The translations under genes were made by a program, and so were the position numbers. This document shows, piece by piece, positions 137-21,219 of a stretch of DNA of 25,759 bases. The first letter of the stretch is position 1. Each line of letters starts with the position of its first letter. The stretch spans positions 1 to 25,759 of the IMG/VR virus record IMGVR_UViG_3300046665_000492; one strand, written 5' to 3'. This DNA is from a virus. The notes beneath the pieces were generated by a model. It was not told where the DNA came from and searched no databases. It was given only the letters and a program-made list of their open reading frames with translations.

Positions 137-187
137 TTTACAAGTGCAACAGTATTTGTTATTATTAACTTATCGCAAGAGCGATAC
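137..187 (+). promoter_or_regulatory. Sigma-A promoter P1 with palindromic operator O1
   Basis: The -35 is TTTACA (137-142) and the -10 is TATTAT (160-165), 17 bp apart. The operator TTATCGC-AAGA-GCGATAC (170-187) covers the expected start site. The same layout, including the GTTTACAAGTGCAAC block around the -35, recurs at 829, 1490 and 21169. A protein bound here would block initiation. Confidence 0.85.
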
Positions 188-828: not shown

Positions 829-879
829 TTTACAAGTGCAACAGTATTTGTTAGTATTAATTTATCGGATAAGCGATAA
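829..879 (+). promoter_or_regulatory. Sigma-A promoter P2 with operator O2
   Basis: TTTACA (829-834), a 17-bp spacer and TAGTAT (852-857). The operator TTATCGG-ATAA-GCGATAA lies at 862-879. It is nearly identical to P1 through the -35 and spacer, so both probably answer to the same regulator. Confidence 0.85.
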
Positions 880-3502: not shown

Positions 3503-3567
3503 AGGTTTTTTGCTACACATATCAGAGAGCCAAGGGCGACTAAAATCCAGCCTATTATTTGAGTCAT
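3499..3567 (-). CDS. Second possible tiny membrane peptide (22 aa)
   Basis: A 22-codon minus-strand frame from ATG 3567-3565 encodes MTQ followed by a hydrophobic helix (IIGWILVALGSLICVA) and a basic end (KNL). GGAGG is present upstream but 15 bases away, longer than ideal, so this is weaker than the peptide at 3036. Equal length and topology on the same strand suggest the two could be related in function. Its 3' end overlaps the end of the RHH gene by 4 bases. Confidence 0.35.
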   Translation of the reverse strand: MTQIIGWILVALGSLICVAKNL

Positions 3568-3611
3568 AAGGGTTATTTTTCGCCTCCTTTTTTCGGTCAA
3601 AAATCGACAAA

Positions 3612-3784
3612 ATTCTTTCCAACCTTTTTTCCAACCTTTTTTCCAACCTAAATTTTCGATTCTTTCCAACCGACAAGGAGCCTAGAGCCTTACTCTCCCA
3701 AGGGTTACAGCGTTTAGGAAAAACGATTCTTTCCAACCGATTTTTTTCATTCTTTCCAACCTTTTTTCCAACTGTTTTTCCACA
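3612..3784 (+). repeat. Iteron-like TTTCCAACC array with symmetric spacing
   Basis: TTTCCAAC(C/T) occurs in direct orientation starting at 3616, 3628, 3640, 3663, 3730, 3753 and 3765, and a related TTTTCCACA (a DnaA-box-like word) aligns at 3777. The steps are 12, 12, 23, 67, 23, 12, 12, a mirror-symmetric series. The two central copies share the 17-mer CGATTCTTTCCAACCGA. An AT-rich stretch follows (3790-3827). Candidate origin, centromere, transfer origin or operator. A near-Spo0A box (ATCGACA, 3603-3609) abuts it. With the hairpin at 3828 this accounts for the 365-base gap between 3502 and 3869. Confidence 0.85.
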
Positions 3785-3827
3785 AACAAGAATTACTTAA
3801 AGAATTATATATATTTAAAAGAATATT

Positions 3828-3845
3828 GTCCGGTTTTTTCCGGAC
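3828..3845 (+). other. Perfect hairpin GTCCGG-T6-CCGGAC
   Basis: A 6-bp GC-rich stem with an all-T loop, just after the AT-rich stretch and 23 bp before the next gene. No T run follows on either strand, so it is not a normal terminator. It could be a leader structure or part of the adjacent origin-like region. Confidence 0.5.
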
Positions 3846-3868
3846 GTTAAAAAAAGGGGCGGTTTAGG

Positions 3869-4294
3869 ATGTTCAAGGTAAAAACAAAAACTATTTCGTA
3901 TCATGACTTTATGGATGGCTCATACAAGTTAAAAGCAAAAGAGAAAACGATCCGTAATTTACACTTCGCTTTATTAGGAGCCTCGCTCGTTTATTCTGTA
4001 TTAGATCCGTTTGGAGGTACGATAGCTAGCGCCTCCGTTAGTGGAGCAATTACAGAGGGAGTACAAGATCGGATTATTAGAGCTTTTGATCCTATAATCC
4101 AATTAGCTCAAGGTTGCTCATATCCAGTAGCGTTTTTAATGTTAGTGCTAGGCGGAATAATGATAATGCTAGGACAAAAAACTCAAGGGCTACGGATCCT
4201 CAAGTATACGGCTATAGGATATATCGTTATCCAGTTTGCGCCCTCTATAATGGCTATACTTGCAGAAGTAGGAAAGGCGATTAGCCAATCATGA
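3869..4294 (+). CDS. Small multi-spanning membrane protein, VirB2/TrbC-like
   Basis: The 141-aa protein has a basic N-terminus (about 1-28), a hydrophobic segment near 30-46, an amphipathic loop, and two clear C-terminal membrane helices (YPVAFLMLVLGGIMIMLG, about 85-102, and YTAIGYIVIQFAPSIMAIL, about 113-131). This resembles small pilin-like subunits (VirB2/TrbC) or membrane partners of conjugation ATPases, though it lacks a conventional signal peptide. It overlaps the ATPase gene by ATGA, so the pair is translated together and probably forms a membrane complex. A holin is less likely given the long N-terminal domain and the partner gene. Confidence 0.6.
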   Translation: MFKVKTKTISYHDFMDGSYKLKAKEKTIRNLHFALLGASLVYSVLDPFGGTIASASVSGAITEGVQDRIIRAFDPIIQLAQGCSYPVAFLMLVLGGIMIMLGQKTQGLRILKYTAIGYIVIQFAPSIMAILAEVGKAISQS

Positions 4295-6456
4295 TACATT
4301 TACGAATAATACCGGACAATCAGATCGATAATACAAAAGTTGAAATTTTAGCTCGTAGTTTAAGCCGCTACGAGCCTCTTTTTAAGCGCTGGGATAGTCA
4401 AGCTAAAAAGTTTTCTAAACAGCCCTTTATTTCGTTCGAGTCCGTTTTATCCAGCAAAGGAGCCGAGTTTATCGTAACAGTTAAAGACGAAAGCGAGGAG
4501 ATAGCTCGGAAAGCTATAGAGAGTACGTTCCCTAAAGCGACGATAGAAAAAGTAGAGGATCCCTTTACGATTGAGCCTACTCTAACATCCGAACTCGCTT
4601 ATCATAACCATTACTTTTTATCCCTCCGGATAGATCGGAGAACTAATTCCCTACTAGCCGCTCTACTGGATACAATCAGTATGTTAACCGCTGGAGAGAT
4701 AATTTATGTACAGAATTTAGCGATACCGGCGGCGACTGATTGGTATATAGGAGCTGTAGAGGCGTATAAGAAGTTTAAAAACGGATCTTTGCCTAGAAAA
4801 GTACACCTAGAGAAAAAGGAGTTAACTAATTACGGTTTACGCCTAGCAGCAAAAACCCTAGCCTCTACCGCTAACTCGCTCGTACACTTGCTAGGATCAA
4901 AACCGGAGGATCCGATAGATCTAGACGGCTGGGATCGTTCTCAAATACTAAAAGAGGGATATTTAAGGCAAGAGACAATTAACAAGGCTAGAGGAGAGGC
5001 TTTCGACGTTACAATCAGAATTGGAGTAAAAGCTAACGATACGAATAGGGCTAGGGATCTTTTAAATATGGTTTATACGGCTTTTCGTTCCCTAGATGGG
5101 GATAATTATCTCAAAGACAAGAAAACGCCCTTAAAACGGACGTATGAGCTTTTAAAGGAAAGGCGGTCTAGTTTAAAGGCTCAAAAAGATTATATGAGCA
5201 TACAGGAGTTTTCTCGTTTGCTGCTAATGCCTCCGTATCACCTACAAGAAAAGTACAATATACAAAATGTATCTAGTCTTGAGCAAAAGCTACCGGATCG
5301 ATTATTAAAAGGCGGCATGTGGTTAGGAGAGCAGCAATTCCGAGGAAAGTCCGAAAAAGTTTATTTTCCCACAACTAACCTAGATGAGTTATGTTTGCCT
5401 AGAGTCGTTATAGGCGGTATGGGATCCGGTAAAACAAAAGGCTACGGCGCTAACTGGATGTATCAAGCTGTTTTAAATGGCTACGGCGCTTTATGTTTGG
5501 ATCCAGCTAAAGGAGAGATAGGGCTAGAATTAAAAAGTAAGTTACCGCCGGAGAAAATAATCCGGATCAATATAGGAGAGACGCCTATCTCTTTAGATTG
5601 GCGAGAGGCATACCATAGCAAAAACTCAAAAGGGAGGCTAGCTAATACGATCCTCTCCTTTTTCAATAACACAACCGACGAGACAGGCGCACAAACTAGC
5701 CGTTATATAAGAGCCGCTGTTATGGCTATGACGAGCGGAAAGCTCTCGGAGATACTTTCTATACTGGAGGAGCCAAAAACTCGAGAGGAGGCGATTTCGA
5801 GACTCTCGGACGGTATCCATAAAACCACGCTACAAGATTTACATGAGCATAGCGACGGACGCCGGAGACAGATCCTCGAGCCTATTTTAAATCGTTTTGA
5901 TCTAATTCTAGGCGACGAGTTTCTAAGTAGCTGCTTTAATGCCGATAAGGGCATAGATCTAGTCGAGCTTATGAGCCAAAAGAAAGCAATTATATTTGAT
6001 GTTCCTAAAAGTATTGTAGGCGAGGAGGGCGTCGAGATTATAGGGAGTCTTATTAGCACGAAAATAGACATAGCTATGACGCTCCGAAAAGAAAAGGATC
6101 AATTCCCTTTCTTTGTTGTGATGGATGAGCCTCACCAGTATTCTAAAAGCGCTCGAGTTTGGAAAAACGCCTCCGTAGAAAGTCGTAAATGGAGAGTCGG
6201 GTACGTTTGGATGTTTCATGAATGGAAACAAATTAACGCAGATCTCCGGGATATCATTAAAAGTGCTTTACCTCACTATCACATATATTCTAGCTCGAAA
6301 AATACGTATAAAGACTTGCTCGATGAATTAAGACCGTTAACCCTAGAGGACTGTATGAAAACAAAAACTCACTATGCTATTAACTCTATAAGATCCGGCG
6401 GAGACTATATAAAACCATTTGTAGCAAAAATGGCTCCTCCTCCGAGTATGCAATAG
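4291..6456 (+). CDS. VirD4/VirB4/HerA-type DNA-translocation ATPase
   Basis: The 721-aa protein has an N-terminal domain of about 365 residues and a RecA-like motor. Walker A is GGMGSGKTKG (375-384); Walker B is FFVVMDEPHQY (607-617). LDPAKGEIG (403-411) fits the strand after Walker A seen in coupling proteins and VirB4/HerA ATPases. The N-terminal part has no strong membrane helix, so anchoring would come from the coupled protein at 3869. Known relatives pump DNA or protein during conjugation, type IV secretion or chromosome handling. It is not the phage terminase, which is present separately at 24587. No relaxase is in the window. Confidence 0.8.
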   Translation: MIHLRIIPDNQIDNTKVEILARSLSRYEPLFKRWDSQAKKFSKQPFISFESVLSSKGAEFIVTVKDESEEIARKAIESTFPKATIEKVEDPFTIEPTLTSELAYHNHYFLSLRIDRRTNSLLAALLDTISMLTAGEIIYVQNLAIPAATDWYIGAVEAYKKFKNGSLPRKVHLEKKELTNYGLRLAAKTLASTANSLVHLLGSKPEDPIDLDGWDRSQILKEGYLRQETINKARGEAFDVTIRIGVKANDTNRARDLLNMVYTAFRSLDGDNYLKDKKTPLKRTYELLKERRSSLKAQKDYMSIQEFSRLLLMPPYHLQEKYNIQNVSSLEQKLPDRLLKGGMWLGEQQFRGKSEKVYFPTTNLDELCLPRVVIGGMGSGKTKGYGANWMYQAVLNGYGALCLDPAKGEIGLELKSKLPPEKIIRINIGETPISLDWREAYHSKNSKGRLANTILSFFNNTTDETGAQTSRYIRAAVMAMTSGKLSEILSILEEPKTREEAISRLSDGIHKTTLQDLHEHSDGRRRQILEPILNRFDLILGDEFLSSCFNADKGIDLVELMSQKKAIIFDVPKSIVGEEGVEIIGSLISTKIDIAMTLRKEKDQFPFFVVMDEPHQYSKSARVWKNASVESRKWRVGYVWMFHEWKQINADLRDIIKSALPHYHIYSSSKNTYKDLLDELRPLTLEDCMKTKTHYAINSIRSGGDYIKPFVAKMAPPPSMQ

Positions 6457-6481
6457 ATCCCTTTTATCGGGATCTTTTTTT
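6455..6481 (+). terminator. Intrinsic terminator after the ATPase gene
   Basis: AGATCCC (6455-6461) and GGGATCT (6469-6475) with a 7-base loop, followed by seven T. It overlaps the ATPase stop codon and insulates the Spo0E-like promoter. Confidence 0.85.
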
Positions 6482-6492
6482 ATTTTCGATAA

Positions 6493-6555
6493 TTCGACAA
6501 AAAACTATTTACAAGTTATCGCTAATAAGATAATATAACGTTAGAACTTGTCGAA
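6493..6555 (+). promoter_or_regulatory. Promoter P5 with operator O5 and two flanking Spo0A boxes
   Basis: TTTACA (6508-6513), 17 bp, TAATAT (6531-6536). The operator TTATCGC-TAAT-AAGATAA (6516-6533) lies between -35 and -10. An exact 0A box in reverse (TTCGACA, 6493-6499) starts 15 bp upstream of the -35. A second exact box (TGTCGAA, 6549-6555) lies just past the expected start and abuts the ribosome site. The TGTCGAA core is the established Spo0A target; action here is inference. Confidence 0.75.
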
Positions 6556-6570
6556 GGGAGACGAAAAAAG

Positions 6571-6762
6571 ATGAATAGTAAGATTGGTCTAGAAAGTAAA
6601 ATCGACGCTCTACGCTCCGCTATGGTAGCCGCTGGAATGAGTAAAGGGTTTACGGATCCGGAAACGATCCGCCTTTCTCAAGAGCTAGATTTATTAATAC
6701 ATGAAGCAATGGTAAACGAAAAACGCAAACAAGAGGAGAGTAAATATGTATACAATCGATGA
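6571..6762 (+). CDS. Spo0E-like aspartyl-phosphate phosphatase
   Basis: The 63-aa protein matches the Spo0E family pattern: a first helix (LESKIDALRSAMVAAGMSKG), a link (FTDPETIRL) and the signature SQELDLLI in the second helix. Family members (Spo0E, YisI, YnzD) form a two-helix hairpin that dephosphorylates Spo0A~P, delaying sporulation. Length is typical and the SQELD signature is intact. Its promoter carries exact Spo0A boxes on both sides, so a phage-borne feedback loop on host Spo0A is likely. The last 17 bases overlap the ERF gene, tying its expression to the recombination genes. Confidence 0.88.
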   Translation: MNSKIGLESKIDALRSAMVAAGMSKGFTDPETIRLSQELDLLIHEAMVNEKRKQEESKYVYNR

Positions 6763-7648
6763 AATTAAAAAGTTGCCGTTAGAGGAGCGAAAAGAGGTTT
6801 TAGGACTTCTCGCTCAACTTAAAAAGAAAAAGGCGGCTGTAGTCGCTGGAGTAACTCGTATTCCTAAAAACGGCTATAACAGCTTTCATAAATACCATTA
6901 TTCAACAGAGAGCGACGTTAAAGAGGGCGTTCGTATTCTTCTATCAGAAAACGGATTAACACTCGATACGGAGTTAGTCGAGGATAAGAAAGAGATTGTT
7001 AAAACAAAACAGGGCGAGCAATGGCTAACAACCGTTAAAATGATGTTTACTCTAACGGATAATGATACCGGCTATATGGATATCCAGTACAACAAAGCGG
7101 AGGCTACGGACTCCGGGGATAAAGGATTATATAAAGCGTATTCCGGCTGTATTAAATACTATTTCTTGAATAACTTTCAAATTGCTAGCGGCGACGATCC
7201 GGAGCAAGGGGAAAGCGATCAAATTATCAAAGATGATAAAAAGCAGCAGCAGCGAGGGCGACAAGGTGGAAACGATAATAAACGTAAGCCGGACAAGCCT
7301 AAAGTAACAAAAGCTACACTGGAGGCGAAATGGAAACAATTAAATAACGGCTCGCTTGACGGTTTGGACGAGTACCTAGAAAAGAAAGCGGCGGAGGGCA
7401 AAGATTATAGCCATGTAGACGCTATCCTATTAGGAAGTATCCAAAAGAAACAAGCTCAAGAGGCGAAAGCTAAAAAGGAGCAGGAGCAAGCGAAAAAAGA
7501 GCAAGAGCAGCAGGAACAAAAAACTAATATCGATATCACTCCGGAGGAAATCGACAAAGCTCTACAAGAGGAGCAAGGAGCAAAGGTTACGGATGTAGCG
7601 GACGGAAAAACTTACATCCATAACGGAAAAGAGATCGTTTTAGATTAA
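6746..7648 (+). CDS. erf: ERF-family single-strand annealing protein
   Basis: The N-terminal 160 or so residues fit the ERF recombinase family: GYNSFHKYHY followed by a helix, LSENGLTLDTEL, and the conserved end DSGDKGLYKAYSGCIKYY with NFQIASGDDPE. ERF proteins anneal complementary single strands during phage recombination and genome circularisation. The C-terminal half (about 165-300) is a low-complexity Gln/Glu/Lys linker and acidic tail, common in this family and possibly contacting SSB. AAGAGGAGAG precedes the ATG. Transcribed with the Spo0E-like gene from P5 and ended by the hairpin at 7657. Confidence 0.88.
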   Translation: MYTIDEIKKLPLEERKEVLGLLAQLKKKKAAVVAGVTRIPKNGYNSFHKYHYSTESDVKEGVRILLSENGLTLDTELVEDKKEIVKTKQGEQWLTTVKMMFTLTDNDTGYMDIQYNKAEATDSGDKGLYKAYSGCIKYYFLNNFQIASGDDPEQGESDQIIKDDKKQQQRGRQGGNDNKRKPDKPKVTKATLEAKWKQLNNGSLDGLDEYLEKKAAEGKDYSHVDAILLGSIQKKQAQEAKAKKEQEQAKKEQEQQEQKTNIDITPEEIDKALQEEQGAKVTDVADGKTYIHNGKEIVLD

Positions 7649-7656
7649 TGTTAACC

Positions 7657-7685
7657 GGAGCGGAGGAGAGCCGCTCCTTTATTTT
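7657..7685 (+). terminator. Intrinsic terminator after erf
   Basis: GGAGCGG (7657-7663) and CCGCTCC (7671-7677) around AGGAGAG, followed by TTTATTTT. Confidence 0.85.
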
Positions 7686-7708
7686 GACTAAAGGGAGAGA
7701 GTGTAGAA

Positions 7709-8647
7709 ATGGATCAAAAGCATTTACAGGTTTTAAACAGAATTGATGATCTAGAGAATGAGCATTGTAAAGGCTGCAAAATTAAAGAGGAGCTACGCAA
7801 ACAAAACGGACAGCCGCTCCAGTATTGTATTTTTTCCTGCAAGATCGGAAAGAAAATAAAGCAGCTCGGCGGCGTCCTTGAGTATGGCATAGTACAAAAC
7901 GTACACGCTAAAGCGCTGGATCTCACCAAGGATAAATACATAGATCTACGTAACGACGGATTGAACGATAGACAGATCCGGGAGAAATACGGCATATCTC
8001 GAGCTACGATGTTTCGGAGAAAAGAAGCGTGGGAGCTTACAGGAAAAACCGGGTTATATAGTCATCGATACACTCCGCTTAAAAAGCTAACAAAAGAAAA
8101 ATTACAAGATATGTGCATGTTTATGACAGAGCAGGAGATAGCGGATAAATTAGGCGTATCTTTAGCTACGATACGGAAATATCGTTATAGATGGGGAATA
8201 GAGTTAGTTTTTGGTAAAGCAAAAGATAAATACAGCAAAACCGAGTTTCTTTATCTCCGGGATAAAAAAGGACTCAATAGAGCGCAGATATGCGAGCTAT
8301 GGGAGGTTTCGGAAAGTACCCTTTATATCCTAATGAAAGAGTGGGGATTAATTAAAGAGCGTCGTTATGCCAATAAAGAAGGGTTAACGAAAGAGCGATT
8401 AACGGAGCTTGCTAAAGCACATACTGATATAGAGATAGCAGCAATGTACAACTTTACAAAAAATACCGTTTGGAAGTACCGGAAAAAGTGGGGAATACCA
8501 GCTTTAAAGCGTGAGATCCCGGCAAAAGCTTTAAAGAAAATGTTAGCCAAAGGCATGAAGCGTAAAGACATAGCCGAGCATTACGGCGTTAACGTTTCGA
8601 CAATTTATAAAAAGATCATCAAATACCGACAACAAAATTTATTATAA
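7709..8647 (+). CDS. Zinc-knuckle protein with five tandem HTH units
   Basis: Residues 19-44 hold HCKGC and YCIFSC, a Cys4 site like the zf-C2HCIx2C zinc-finger family of Bacillus phages. Then come five homologous units of about 40-50 residues, each ending in a helix-turn-helix: NDRQIREKYGISRATMF (about 86-102), EQEIADKLGVSLATIRKY (141-158), NRAQICELWEVSESTLY (190-206), DIEIAAMYNFTKNTVWKY (240-257) and KRKDIAEHYGVNVSTIY (284-300), the first four followed by a W/R-rich end. Such a chain could read a long repeated DNA site or recruit resolvase/transposase-like partners. No catalytic domain is visible. It sits alone between a terminator and P6. Confidence 0.8.
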   Translation: MDQKHLQVLNRIDDLENEHCKGCKIKEELRKQNGQPLQYCIFSCKIGKKIKQLGGVLEYGIVQNVHAKALDLTKDKYIDLRNDGLNDRQIREKYGISRATMFRRKEAWELTGKTGLYSHRYTPLKKLTKEKLQDMCMFMTEQEIADKLGVSLATIRKYRYRWGIELVFGKAKDKYSKTEFLYLRDKKGLNRAQICELWEVSESTLYILMKEWGLIKERRYANKEGLTKERLTELAKAHTDIEIAAMYNFTKNTVWKYRKKWGIPALKREIPAKALKKMLAKGMKRKDIAEHYGVNVSTIYKKIIKYRQQNLL

Positions 8648-8691
8648 TTCGACAAAAAGAGCTTGTAATATTATCGCTGGAGTGTTAAACT
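8648..8691 (+). promoter_or_regulatory. Promoter P6 of the XRE gene with operator O6 and a Spo0A box
   Basis: TTGTAA (8663-8668), 17 bp, TAAACT (8686-8691). The operator TTATCGC-TGGA-GTGTTAA (8671-8688) sits in the spacer, as in P5 and P7. An exact reverse 0A box (TTCGACA, 8648-8654) starts 15 bp before the -35, the same offset as at P5. A further TTCGACA lies at 8596-8602 inside the preceding gene. This suggests autoregulation plus Spo0A input. Confidence 0.7.
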
Positions 8692-8740
8692 ACAGTAGAA
8701 GTTAATAGTTATAGCGATATACATCGAAAGGAGTCACATT

Positions 8741-8998
8741 ATGACTGAAAATAAAACACCTTCAATAAAGTTGAAGGAATTACGAATTAAAGCCGGCTTG
8801 AGTCAAAATAAGCTAGCTAAACTAGCTGAGGTTAGTCAATCACATATTAGCGAGATCGAAAGCGGAGTTAAACGAGTTAGCCTAGATATTACTCGAAAGT
8901 TAGCTCGAGCGCTGGATGTTCCGTTTATGGCATTAATTAGCGAGGACTTTCTCGAGGAGAGCGAGGAAGAAATCGAGCAGGAGCAAGACGAGGAGTAA
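8741..8998 (+). CDS. XRE-family transcriptional repressor candidate
   Basis: An 85-aa protein with a canonical XRE/Cro/CI helix-turn-helix: LKELRIKAGLSQNKLAKLAE, then VSQSHISEIESG (recognition helix, about 31-42), KRVSLDITRKLARALDV. The C-terminus is a short acidic tail (EESEEEIEQEQDEE) with no oligomerisation or LexA-type self-cleavage domain, so inactivation would not be by RecA-stimulated cleavage. Its own promoter carries the shared operator, making it the best candidate for the protein that controls the seven-site regulon; the five-HTH protein and the HTH protein at 13454 are alternatives. Confidence 0.88.
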   Translation: MTENKTPSIKLKELRIKAGLSQNKLAKLAEVSQSHISEIESGVKRVSLDITRKLARALDVPFMALISEDFLEESEEEIEQEQDEE

Positions 8999-9009
8999 TT
9001 TTACTCCTC
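8990..9009 (+). other. Palindrome across the XRE stop codon
   Basis: GAGGAGTAA (8990-8998) and TTACTCCTC (9001-9009) form a 9-bp inverted repeat with a 2-base centre that includes the stop codon. There is no T run, so it is more likely an mRNA-end or pause structure than an efficient terminator. Confidence 0.5.
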
Positions 9010-13329: not shown

Positions 13330-13394
13330 ATCGACAAATATTTTAATAATGTTGTCGTTTCGTGCTTGTATTATTATCGCTTTAGTGATAAGAT
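13330..13394 (+). promoter_or_regulatory. Promoter P7 with operator O7 and a near-Spo0A box
   Basis: TTGTAT (13366-13371), 17 bp, TAAGAT (13389-13394). The operator TTATCGC-TTTA-GTGATAA (13374-13391) is in the spacer, 3 bp past the -35 as in P5 and P6. ATCGACA (13330-13336) is one base off a 0A box. This promoter should drive the HTH-SSB-dUTPase block. Confidence 0.75.
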
Positions 13395-13453: not shown

Positions 13454-13978
13454 ATGTTTAAAAAAGAATGGGCTTTTGATAGTGACGTATTTAAACTAGG
13501 GACTCCGGTACAAGTTAAAGGTATCGATTGCGAGGGCGAGCAAGTTAATTTCAAAGGGCTAGTAAAGAAGAACCTTTTAAATGATATTGTCCTAGTTGAC
13601 GTTTTCGGATTAGAGTTACAAATTAACATTAATGATGTACATGGAGCGCCGGATCGAGTGGTAGATCCCGACTTCCAAGAAATAGGCTTTTACATTAGCG
13701 TAGCAAGTTTTGATAAAGCTCCGATAAAATCGGAAAACGCTACATTGATCGAGCCGCTTATTGATCCAGCCGAAACGATGGAGGATATAAGCTCCAGCAA
13801 ACGAGGCGGACATATTACGGCTAACGGCGGTAAACATATCCCTCACGAAACAAGAGAGGCTATCCGTCAATTACGAAAAGCTCGCCCGGATGTAAGACAA
13901 AAAGATATAGCGGAGCTTTTTGGAGTAGGGCGCTCCACGATTTCAAATATTTTAAACGAGGTAGCGGATAATGAGTAA
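13454..13978 (+). CDS. HTH protein with a beta-rich N-terminal domain (174 aa)
   Basis: Residues 1-65 look like a small beta barrel (GTPVQVKGIDCEGEQVNFKG, VLVDVFGLELQINI). The C-terminus (about 128-172) is a resolvase-like HTH: ETREAIRQLRKARPDVRQKDIAELFGVGRSTISNIL, described by its key pieces QKDIAELFGVG and RSTISNIL. The combination suggests a DNA-binding regulator or replication accessory; the HTH resembles the units of the five-HTH protein at 7709. First gene of the P7 operon, overlapping the next by 8 bp. Confidence 0.7.
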   Translation: MFKKEWAFDSDVFKLGTPVQVKGIDCEGEQVNFKGLVKKNLLNDIVLVDVFGLELQININDVHGAPDRVVDPDFQEIGFYISVASFDKAPIKSENATLIEPLIDPAETMEDISSSKRGGHITANGGKHIPHETREAIRQLRKARPDVRQKDIAELFGVGRSTISNILNEVADNE

Positions 13979-18452: not shown

Positions 18453-18821
18453 TTATCGACGAGGATAAACTTTAAATCCGTTTGAGTAATTTGTAGCCCA
18501 AGATCCATACGAGCGACTCTTTGAAGCTCTAAAAGCAACTTTAAAGCGGAAAGAGTTCATTTTCATATAGCGAGGGAATGAATTACGAGTTGAGTATGAA
18601 CGTCTAGATGGACTCGTAGGCGATACATAACCGTATTTCGTCGGAGCATTGATATTAACATATTTCCCGGAATACTTGTTATACATTTGGATTGTAGCTT
18701 TCCAATCCTTACGAGTTAATCCGTAGTTACCTTGCATGTAAATTTTAAGGACTACATAACTAGCCGTAGATTGATAAATACTAGCGTCTGTAAAAACATC
18801 TACATAAGCGGTAGAACTCAT
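18453..18821 (-). CDS. Ser/Tyr/Arg-rich beta protein (122 aa), possible virion accessory
   Basis: Not recognised. No signal peptide. The sequence is beta-like and polar (STAYVDVFTDASIYQSTASYVVLKIYMQG; then SPTSPSRRSYSTRNSFPRY), with a basic C-terminus ending FKVYPRR. GGGAGG precedes the minus-strand ATG. It ends 21 bp before the tail-fibre-like gene and so shares its transcript, which suggests a joint structural role such as an Ig-like decoration or fibre partner. Confidence 0.6.
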   Translation of the reverse strand: MSSTAYVDVFTDASIYQSTASYVVLKIYMQGNYGLTRKDWKATIQMYNKYSGKYVNINAPTKYGYVSPTSPSRRSYSTRNSFPRYMKMNSFRFKVAFRASKSRSYGSWATNYSNGFKVYPRR

Positions 18822-19126
18822 AAACTTTTAACCTCCCAGTATTTAATTTTGTCTAACAGAAAACATGATAACATAATTTGTCACATTTTGGCGACTAACT
18901 AGAAAATTTTCCAATCGATGAGACATAGATCTCTCGTAATAGTGCCATAGATAAAGATAATTATTGTTTTAGCGGTATTTGTCGAAAGTCCAAGTAAAAA
19001 AATATTCCTTTTTCTGAAATATGTAGTATTATATTTCTACAGGGAGCAATTTTCTATATAACTATGAGAGTCCAAAAAATACTATTGAAAAGTCCATTCA
19101 ACTATTTTTCTCATATAGATTATTGC
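18822..19126. promoter_or_regulatory. Non-coding control region with minus promoter and Spo0A box
   Basis: No gene seen. A minus-strand promoter is TAGAAA (19056-19051), 17 bp, TATAAT (19033-19028), placed to drive the 18821-17805 unit with a leader of about 200 nt. The inverted repeat TGTAG...CTACA (19022-19041) brackets its -10. An exact 0A box (TGTCGAA) is at 18981-18987, downstream of the start site, so Spo0A could block elongation or act on another promoter. AGTCCA recurs at about 18989, 19069 and 19091. The stretch is AT-rich. Confidence 0.55.
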
Positions 19127-21107: not shown

Positions 21108-21152
21108 ATTATATAACAATGTTTTTGAAAAATCGACAAAATGTTTTCGACA
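21108..21152 (-). promoter_or_regulatory. Leftward promoter with tandem Spo0A boxes
   Basis: A minus-strand TATAAT (21113-21108) has no good -35 at 17 bp. Instead, 0A boxes TGTCGAT (21138-21132) and TGTCGAA (21152-21146) lie in the same orientation, 14 bp apart, at about -31 to -37 and -45 to -51 from the expected start. This is like Spo0A-activated sigma-A promoters such as spoIIG, where boxes replace a proper -35. It would drive the secreted protein gene. Confidence 0.6.
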
Positions 21153-21168
21153 AATTTTAAAATAAGTG

Positions 21169-21219
21169 TTTACAAGTGCAACTATATTTGATATTATTAA
21201 TTTATCGCAAGAGCGATAA
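21169..21219 (+). promoter_or_regulatory. Sigma-A promoter P4 with perfect operator O4
   Basis: TTTACA (21169-21174), 17 bp, TATTAT (21192-21197). Operator TTATCGC-AAGA-GCGATAA (21202-21219) is a perfect 7+7 palindrome, the best of the seven. The -35 to spacer block is almost identical to P1 although about 21 kb away. The tandem Spo0A boxes lie just upstream, shared with the leftward promoter. Confidence 0.88.

Follow-up and report, generated by a model that had tools for sequence, protein, structure and literature searches.

Candidate Spo0A boxes next to XRE-operator promoters in the early region of a phage genome fragment

In the early region of a virus genome fragment, the sequence TTCGACA lies shortly upstream of the promoter of a gene encoding an XRE-family protein, and again upstream of the promoter of a gene encoding a Spo0E-like phosphatase. 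Is this sequence a site for the host Spo0A protein and, if so, what could the phage gain from it? An earlier note on this DNA had proposed one shared design, combining XRE autoregulation with Spo0A input, in which sporulation state could set the repressor level and hence the choice between lysis and lysogeny. We analysed the whole stretch of DNA (the window), a 25.8 kb piece of an incomplete virus genome that lacks the structural genes, and compared it with related phages.

Early genes and putative XRE operators

The early genes encode, in order, a TrbC/VirB2-like membrane protein, a VirD4-like ATPase (phrog_5156), the Spo0E-like protein, an Erf annealing protein, a 312-aa zinc-finger multi-HTH protein, the 85-aa XRE protein, a DnaD-like loader and the DnaB helicase; the terminase large subunit gene runs past the right end of the window. 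The small membrane protein and the ATPase that follows it (3869-6456) form a pair that occurs in many Bacillus-group phages. The host of this phage is probably a spore-forming bacterium. The Spo0E-like protein scores above the PF09388 cut-off and keeps an intact SQELD motif. A single-sequence search of this protein against solved structures gave no match at E 0.01, and a search for further phage Spo0E-like promoters returned known ones only. The 312-aa protein was found, in the scans made, only in the lineage of the window and in the relative L004, and is a candidate alternative binder of the boxes. A genome scan with this protein as query gave no match, nor did a search of the region against known phages at the DNA level.

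Table 1. Coordinates of boxes, promoters, operators and genes in the window.
Feature	Position	Strand	Description
Operator at early promoter A	170-187	+	no box upstream
Operator at early promoter B	862-879	+	no box upstream
Box ATCGACAAA	3603-3611	+	intergenic region 3503-3868; no adjoining operator
Box D, TTCGACA	6493-6499	+	15 bp before -35 of Spo0E-like promoter
Promoter D (Spo0E-like gene)	6508-6536	+	TTTACA-17-TAATAT; -10 at 6531
Operator in promoter D, TTATCGCTAATAAGATAA	6516-6533	+	between -35 and -10, as in promoter E
Inverted box (TGTCGAA on + strand)	6549-6555	-	in leader of Spo0E-like gene
Spo0E-like aspartyl-phosphate phosphatase	6571-6762	+	63 aa, SQELD motif; Pfam PF09388, E=8.2e-13; alignment
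312-aa protein	7709-8647		N-terminal zinc finger and repeated HTH units
TTCGACA copy	8596-8602	+	within coding sequence of 312-aa multi-HTH protein; codons V-S-T
Box E, TTCGACA (TTCGACAAAAA)	8648-8654	+	15 bp before -35 of XRE-gene promoter; kept in L003, absent in L004
Promoter E (XRE gene)	8663-8691	+	-35 TTGTAA 8663-8668, 17 bp spacer, extended (TG) -10 TAAACT 8686-8691
Operator in promoter E, TTATCGCTGGAGTGTTAA	8671-8688	+	2 mismatches to TTATCGCNNNNGCGATAA
Second half-operator (TTATAGCGATA)	8709-8719	+	between promoter E and XRE start codon; GCGATAA half-site at matching place in L004
XRE/HTH_3 repressor	8741-8998	+	85 aa, acidic tail; Pfam PF01381, E=1.8e-15
Box at promoter F (ATCGACAAA)	13330-13336	+	36 bp before -35; conserved in L077
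Promoter F	13366-13394	+	TTGTAT-17-TAAGAT; operator TTATCGCTTTAGTGATAA at 13374-13391
Box (TTCGACAAA on - strand)	18980-18986	-	upstream of - strand gene 18453-18821; conserved in L077
Tandem boxes at promoter C (ATCGACAAA, TTCGACAAA)	21132-21152	+	14 bp from start to start; 37 and 23 bp before -35; both conserved in L077
Promoter C	21169-21219	+	TTTACA-17-TATTAT, then perfect operator TTATCGCAAGAGCGATAA (21202-21219)

The palindrome TTATCGCNNNNGCGATAA lies within the promoter of the XRE gene itself and recurs at other early promoters. Allowing up to three mismatches, we counted 13 occurrences in the window against 2.15 expected, a number reached in none of 100 shuffles, and six promoters carry it (170, 862, 6516, 8671, 13374 and 21202). 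Relatives with a diverged XRE protein also have a palindrome across the Spo0E/XRE operon promoter, in the same position but with another sequence (ATCACGATnGTGAT in vB_BpsM-61 and PK2.1, TGATCATGATCA in TP-84, ACTATTCGAGTAGT in 031MP003). The recognition-helix residues are QSHIS in both the window and L004, and QAQIS in both BpsM-61 and PK2.1; proteins with the same residues go with the same palindrome and those with other residues go with other palindromes. Because palindrome and recognition helix change together, we infer that the XRE protein binds the operator palindrome. An XRE operator overlapping its own promoter, as the earlier note had it, is supported, its position being conserved in relatives.

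Four near-identical early promoters (137-187, 829-879, 1489-1541 and 21168-21219) also form a family with the pattern GTTTACARGTGCAAC...TATTATTAA. Each member is followed by the XRE operator or by a degenerate version of it (ACATCGGTTAGGCGATTA for the copy at 1489).

Position and enrichment of the TTCGACA boxes

The geometry described earlier for the XRE-gene promoter (E) and the Spo0E-like promoter (D) was confirmed, with TTCGACA starting exactly 15 bp before the -35 (8648 to 8663 and 6493 to 6508) and an operator of the TTATCGC type 3 bp after it, its first base (8671 and 6516) being the third past the -35 hexamer. The claim of a fixed distance holds for these two promoters and fails elsewhere, since the corresponding values are 36 bp at promoter F (13330 to 13366) and 23 and 37 bp at promoter C (21146 and 21132 to 21169). 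Identical geometry is thus confined to D and E; these two promoters have a 15-base block in common, in register (ATAATTCGACAAAAA), and may be duplicates of one another. The second box proposed in the upstream gene, at 8596, is indeed present as a copy of the sequence. As a regulatory site it was rejected, because it falls within the codons of the HTH residues 'NVSTI' and is lost in L004, where the residues differ; it is probably incidental. A -35 of TCGACA paired with a -10 of TATCGC was also considered, and this pair scored below the assigned hexamers at D, E and C. At promoter F, a TCGACA/TGTCGT pair scored slightly above the assigned hexamers, but its -10 is weak.

Counted over the whole window, the bare 7-mer TTCGACA is weakly enriched (6 against 2.75 expected, matched by 5 of 100 shuffles), and this count was dropped as too weak in favour of intergenic tests. 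In intergenic DNA, TTCGACAA occurs 5 times against 0.07 expected and [AT]TCGACAAA 7 times against 0.07 expected, with 0 of 300 simulations in both cases. The core TCGACAAA is the most over-represented intergenic 8-mer of the window (7 against 0.095 expected), ahead of ribosome-binding-site words and of the operator half-site. The box is a real over-represented motif, not a product of chance. Five of the seven intergenic TCGACAAA sites lie at four operator promoters (twice at C, once each at D, E and F); the others are at 18986, upstream of a minus-strand gene, and at 3603.

Beside the 3603 box, the intergenic region holds seven copies of TTTCCAAC (3616-3772). Read on the minus strand, the repeats fall in a small ORF that contains GWKKGWKKGWKE repeats; after it comes a hydrophobic peptide of 22 aa with its own ribosome-binding-site-like sequence.

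Spo0A as candidate binder

In B. subtilis and C. difficile, Spo0A is established to contact G2, C4 and G5 of the core TGTCGAA (PMC3485338). The exact core is found at 6493, 8648, 18986 and 21146. The three remaining sites of the seven (ATCGACAAA at 3603, 13330 and 21132) keep G2, C4 and G5 and are one base off the core, at its last base. The earlier identification of TTCGACA as a Spo0A-box sequence is thus in agreement with the published core, and the intergenic excess points the same way.

Bacillus phage phi29 (Salasvirus) served as a control genome. TTGTCGAA occurs 6 times in the whole window against 0.55 expected and 5 times in phi29 against 0.71 expected, where all copies lie in the C2 and A2c/A2b-A3 promoter regions, one of them 12 bp before the C2 -35; the distant relatives tested gave no clear TTGTCGAA excess. 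Both phages therefore carry several perfect boxes at promoters, with a similar excess over expectation, and the window thus shows the phi29-type trait of multiple consensus 0A boxes at early promoters in excess of chance. In phi29, a virulent phage, binding of Spo0A is reported to suspend lytic development (Meijer et al. 2005, cited in PMC9437464). That source presents the Spo0A response of phi29 as experimentally established, whereas that of the window phage is predicted; neither an XRE regulator nor a Spo0E-like gene appears in the phi29 annotation, and the window has both. A scan for Spo0J/parS sites with up to 3 mismatches, covering the 25.8 kb window of an incomplete genome, returned only promoter look-alikes, so that spore entrapment, the other half of the phi29 model, finds no support here. 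As the genome is incomplete, we say that the phage would work like the phi29 type and do not call it a member. Sites for CtrA in phages of Alphaproteobacteria, for which lytic deferment has been proposed (PMC9437464), are likewise a case of phage promoters predicted to be under a host cell-cycle master regulator, with another regulator, other hosts and other phages.

Reading the boxes as Spo0A sites is plausible, and is strengthened by the intergenic enrichment and by the phi29 control. Since a Spo0E-like gene sits behind a boxed promoter, we consider Spo0A the most likely binder, on the assumption that the host has this protein.

The distribution of the boxes in relatives separates them from the operator. 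Relatives that are near-identical or about 90-94% identical (L002, L003, L075-L077) retain whichever of the boxes at E, F, 18986 and C (two) they cover. This was rejected as proof of constraint for L003 and L077, as the flanks are about 95% identical too; with flanks nearly as conserved, presence in close relatives is weak evidence. The XRE protein is 92% identical in L003 and 60% in L004. The latter genome is syntenic, with the same genes and with the equivalents of promoters D and E and their operators kept, yet it has no box at either promoter, and the Spo0E-XRE promoters of TP-84 and PK2.1 are also without box. In vB_BpsM-61, TTGTCGAA at L017:4926-4933 overlaps the -35 of the Spo0E-XRE promoter, beside two XRE-type palindromes. 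The earlier note had held that relatives keeping the promoter and lacking the boxes would count against its proposal: L004 is such a relative, whereas the close relatives keep their boxes. The idea of one shared design thus applies to the operator but fails for the box. The operator is the older part, since the Spo0E/XRE-operon promoter is overlapped by a palindrome throughout the phage family, and the boxes are a layer added to this older XRE circuit in one lineage.

Predicted circuit, alternatives and life cycle

Our preferred reading, to which we give a little less than an even chance, is that the boxes are host Spo0A sites added in this lineage to XRE-controlled early promoters, where Spo0A~P would repress and the Spo0E-like phosphatase would lower Spo0A~P. 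The XRE protein would bind TTATCGCNNNNGCGATAA sites overlapping or just past early promoters and repress them, its own promoter included, acting as an early-gene autoregulator and not as a lysogeny repressor. High levels of Spo0A~P would occupy the boxes next to the -35 and turn the early promoters down, as in phi29. When Spo0A~P is low, the phosphatase would be made and Spo0A~P would stay low, so that the host would remain vegetative and the infection proceed. Binding of the box by Spo0A, the sign of the Spo0A effect and the mutual antagonism are the parts that we infer. By analogy, the phage may sense whether its host nears sporulation, much as phi29 is known to do. We doubt, while giving it some weight, that the arrangement amounts to a double-negative, bistable switch, in which the phosphatase removes Spo0A~P, Spo0A~P shuts the phosphatase and XRE promoters, and the state of the host at infection decides between 'lyse now' and 'wait'.

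Seven copies, five of them at operator promoters, also resemble one regulon, and the phage encodes several further DNA-binding proteins. TCGACAAA could then be the site of a phage-encoded regulator, for instance the 312-aa protein or the 174-aa HTH protein (13454-13978), marking a class of early or middle promoters, its likeness to the Spo0A site being accidental. The confinement of the motif to this lineage is what would be expected if site and protein co-evolve. Yet the motif matches a well-known regulator site of the likely hosts, flanking A/T preference included; phi29 shows the same 8-mer excess; and L004 encodes the 312-aa protein but lacks the motif. We regard this explanation as rather unlikely, though a serious competitor. 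Much less probable is a TTCGACA without any regulator, being part of an A-tract UP-like element or a by-product of promoter D duplicating E. Between the box and the -35 there is a run of A, at the place expected of a proximal UP element, and the 15 bases common to D and E are as duplicates would have them. Against this, C, F and 18986 also have the GC-containing core TCGACAAA, in other contexts and at other distances.

If Spo0A~P does bind, it might activate instead, so that a sporulating host would raise the XRE and Spo0E-like levels, in a negative feedback holding Spo0A~P down. Activators contact RNA polymerase from just upstream of the -35, which is where the box lies, the boxes at F and one of those at C lying farther upstream by about two helical turns. 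For 0A boxes, activation as well as repression has been described (PMC12090719). Against activation, the promoters have fair -35 and -10 elements with 17 bp spacing and so may need no activator, and the phi29 precedent is one of suspended lytic development; we therefore judge it unlikely. The proposal that XRE is a prophage repressor with its level set by Spo0A, so that sporulation state would decide between lysis and lysogeny, is unsupported and seems to us the most improbable of all. The XRE protein is CI-like by family, with putative operators at many early promoters, which is the likeness to a CI/Cro-type switch such as the integrase and UmuD-like repressor module of D6E, and in a fragment the integrase could lie elsewhere. 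Nevertheless, no integrase, divergent repressor, Spo0A domain or Spo0A-like protein was found among the window ORFs scanned, although the window covers the slot that in D6E, which is related through its ATPase, is taken by an integrase and a divergent UmuD-like repressor in place of the Spo0E-like gene.

The same Spo0E-XRE layout is common to the window, TP-84, PK2.1 and vB_BpsM-61. The Saundersvirus phages (TP-84, PK2.1) and Bacillus phage vB_BpsM-61 have, like the window, a VirD4-like ATPase followed by a Spo0E-like gene and an XRE regulator, and a palindrome lies across their operon promoter. They differ in operator sequence and in the box, absent from TP-84 and PK2.1 and overlapping the -35 in BpsM-61, and in the window the XRE gene is separated, with its own promoter. 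TP-84 is listed as lytic (review PMC10969951). As far as the incomplete genome shows, a lysogeny switch is unlikely in this phage, because no integrase or divergent repressor was found among the window ORFs scanned and because lytic TP-84 has the same layout. D6E is listed as lytic in the same review (PMC10969951) although it has an integrase, so that layout alone does not settle the life cycle.

Among virulent phages, phi29 is the documented example with Spo0A-responsive promoters. Were our preferred reading, with Spo0A repressing at the boxes, correct, an unrelated phage lineage would have gained boxes independently, on promoters under its own XRE repressor. One boxed promoter would drive a gene predicted to dephosphorylate Spo0A, making the sensing and the manipulation of host state two arms of one circuit, for which the box-less relative L004 provides a natural control. 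Within one phage family, finally, the slot after the VirD4-like ATPase holds either the Spo0E-XRE module or, in D6E, the integrase and divergent repressor (L015:14510-16993 compared with window 6457-9000).
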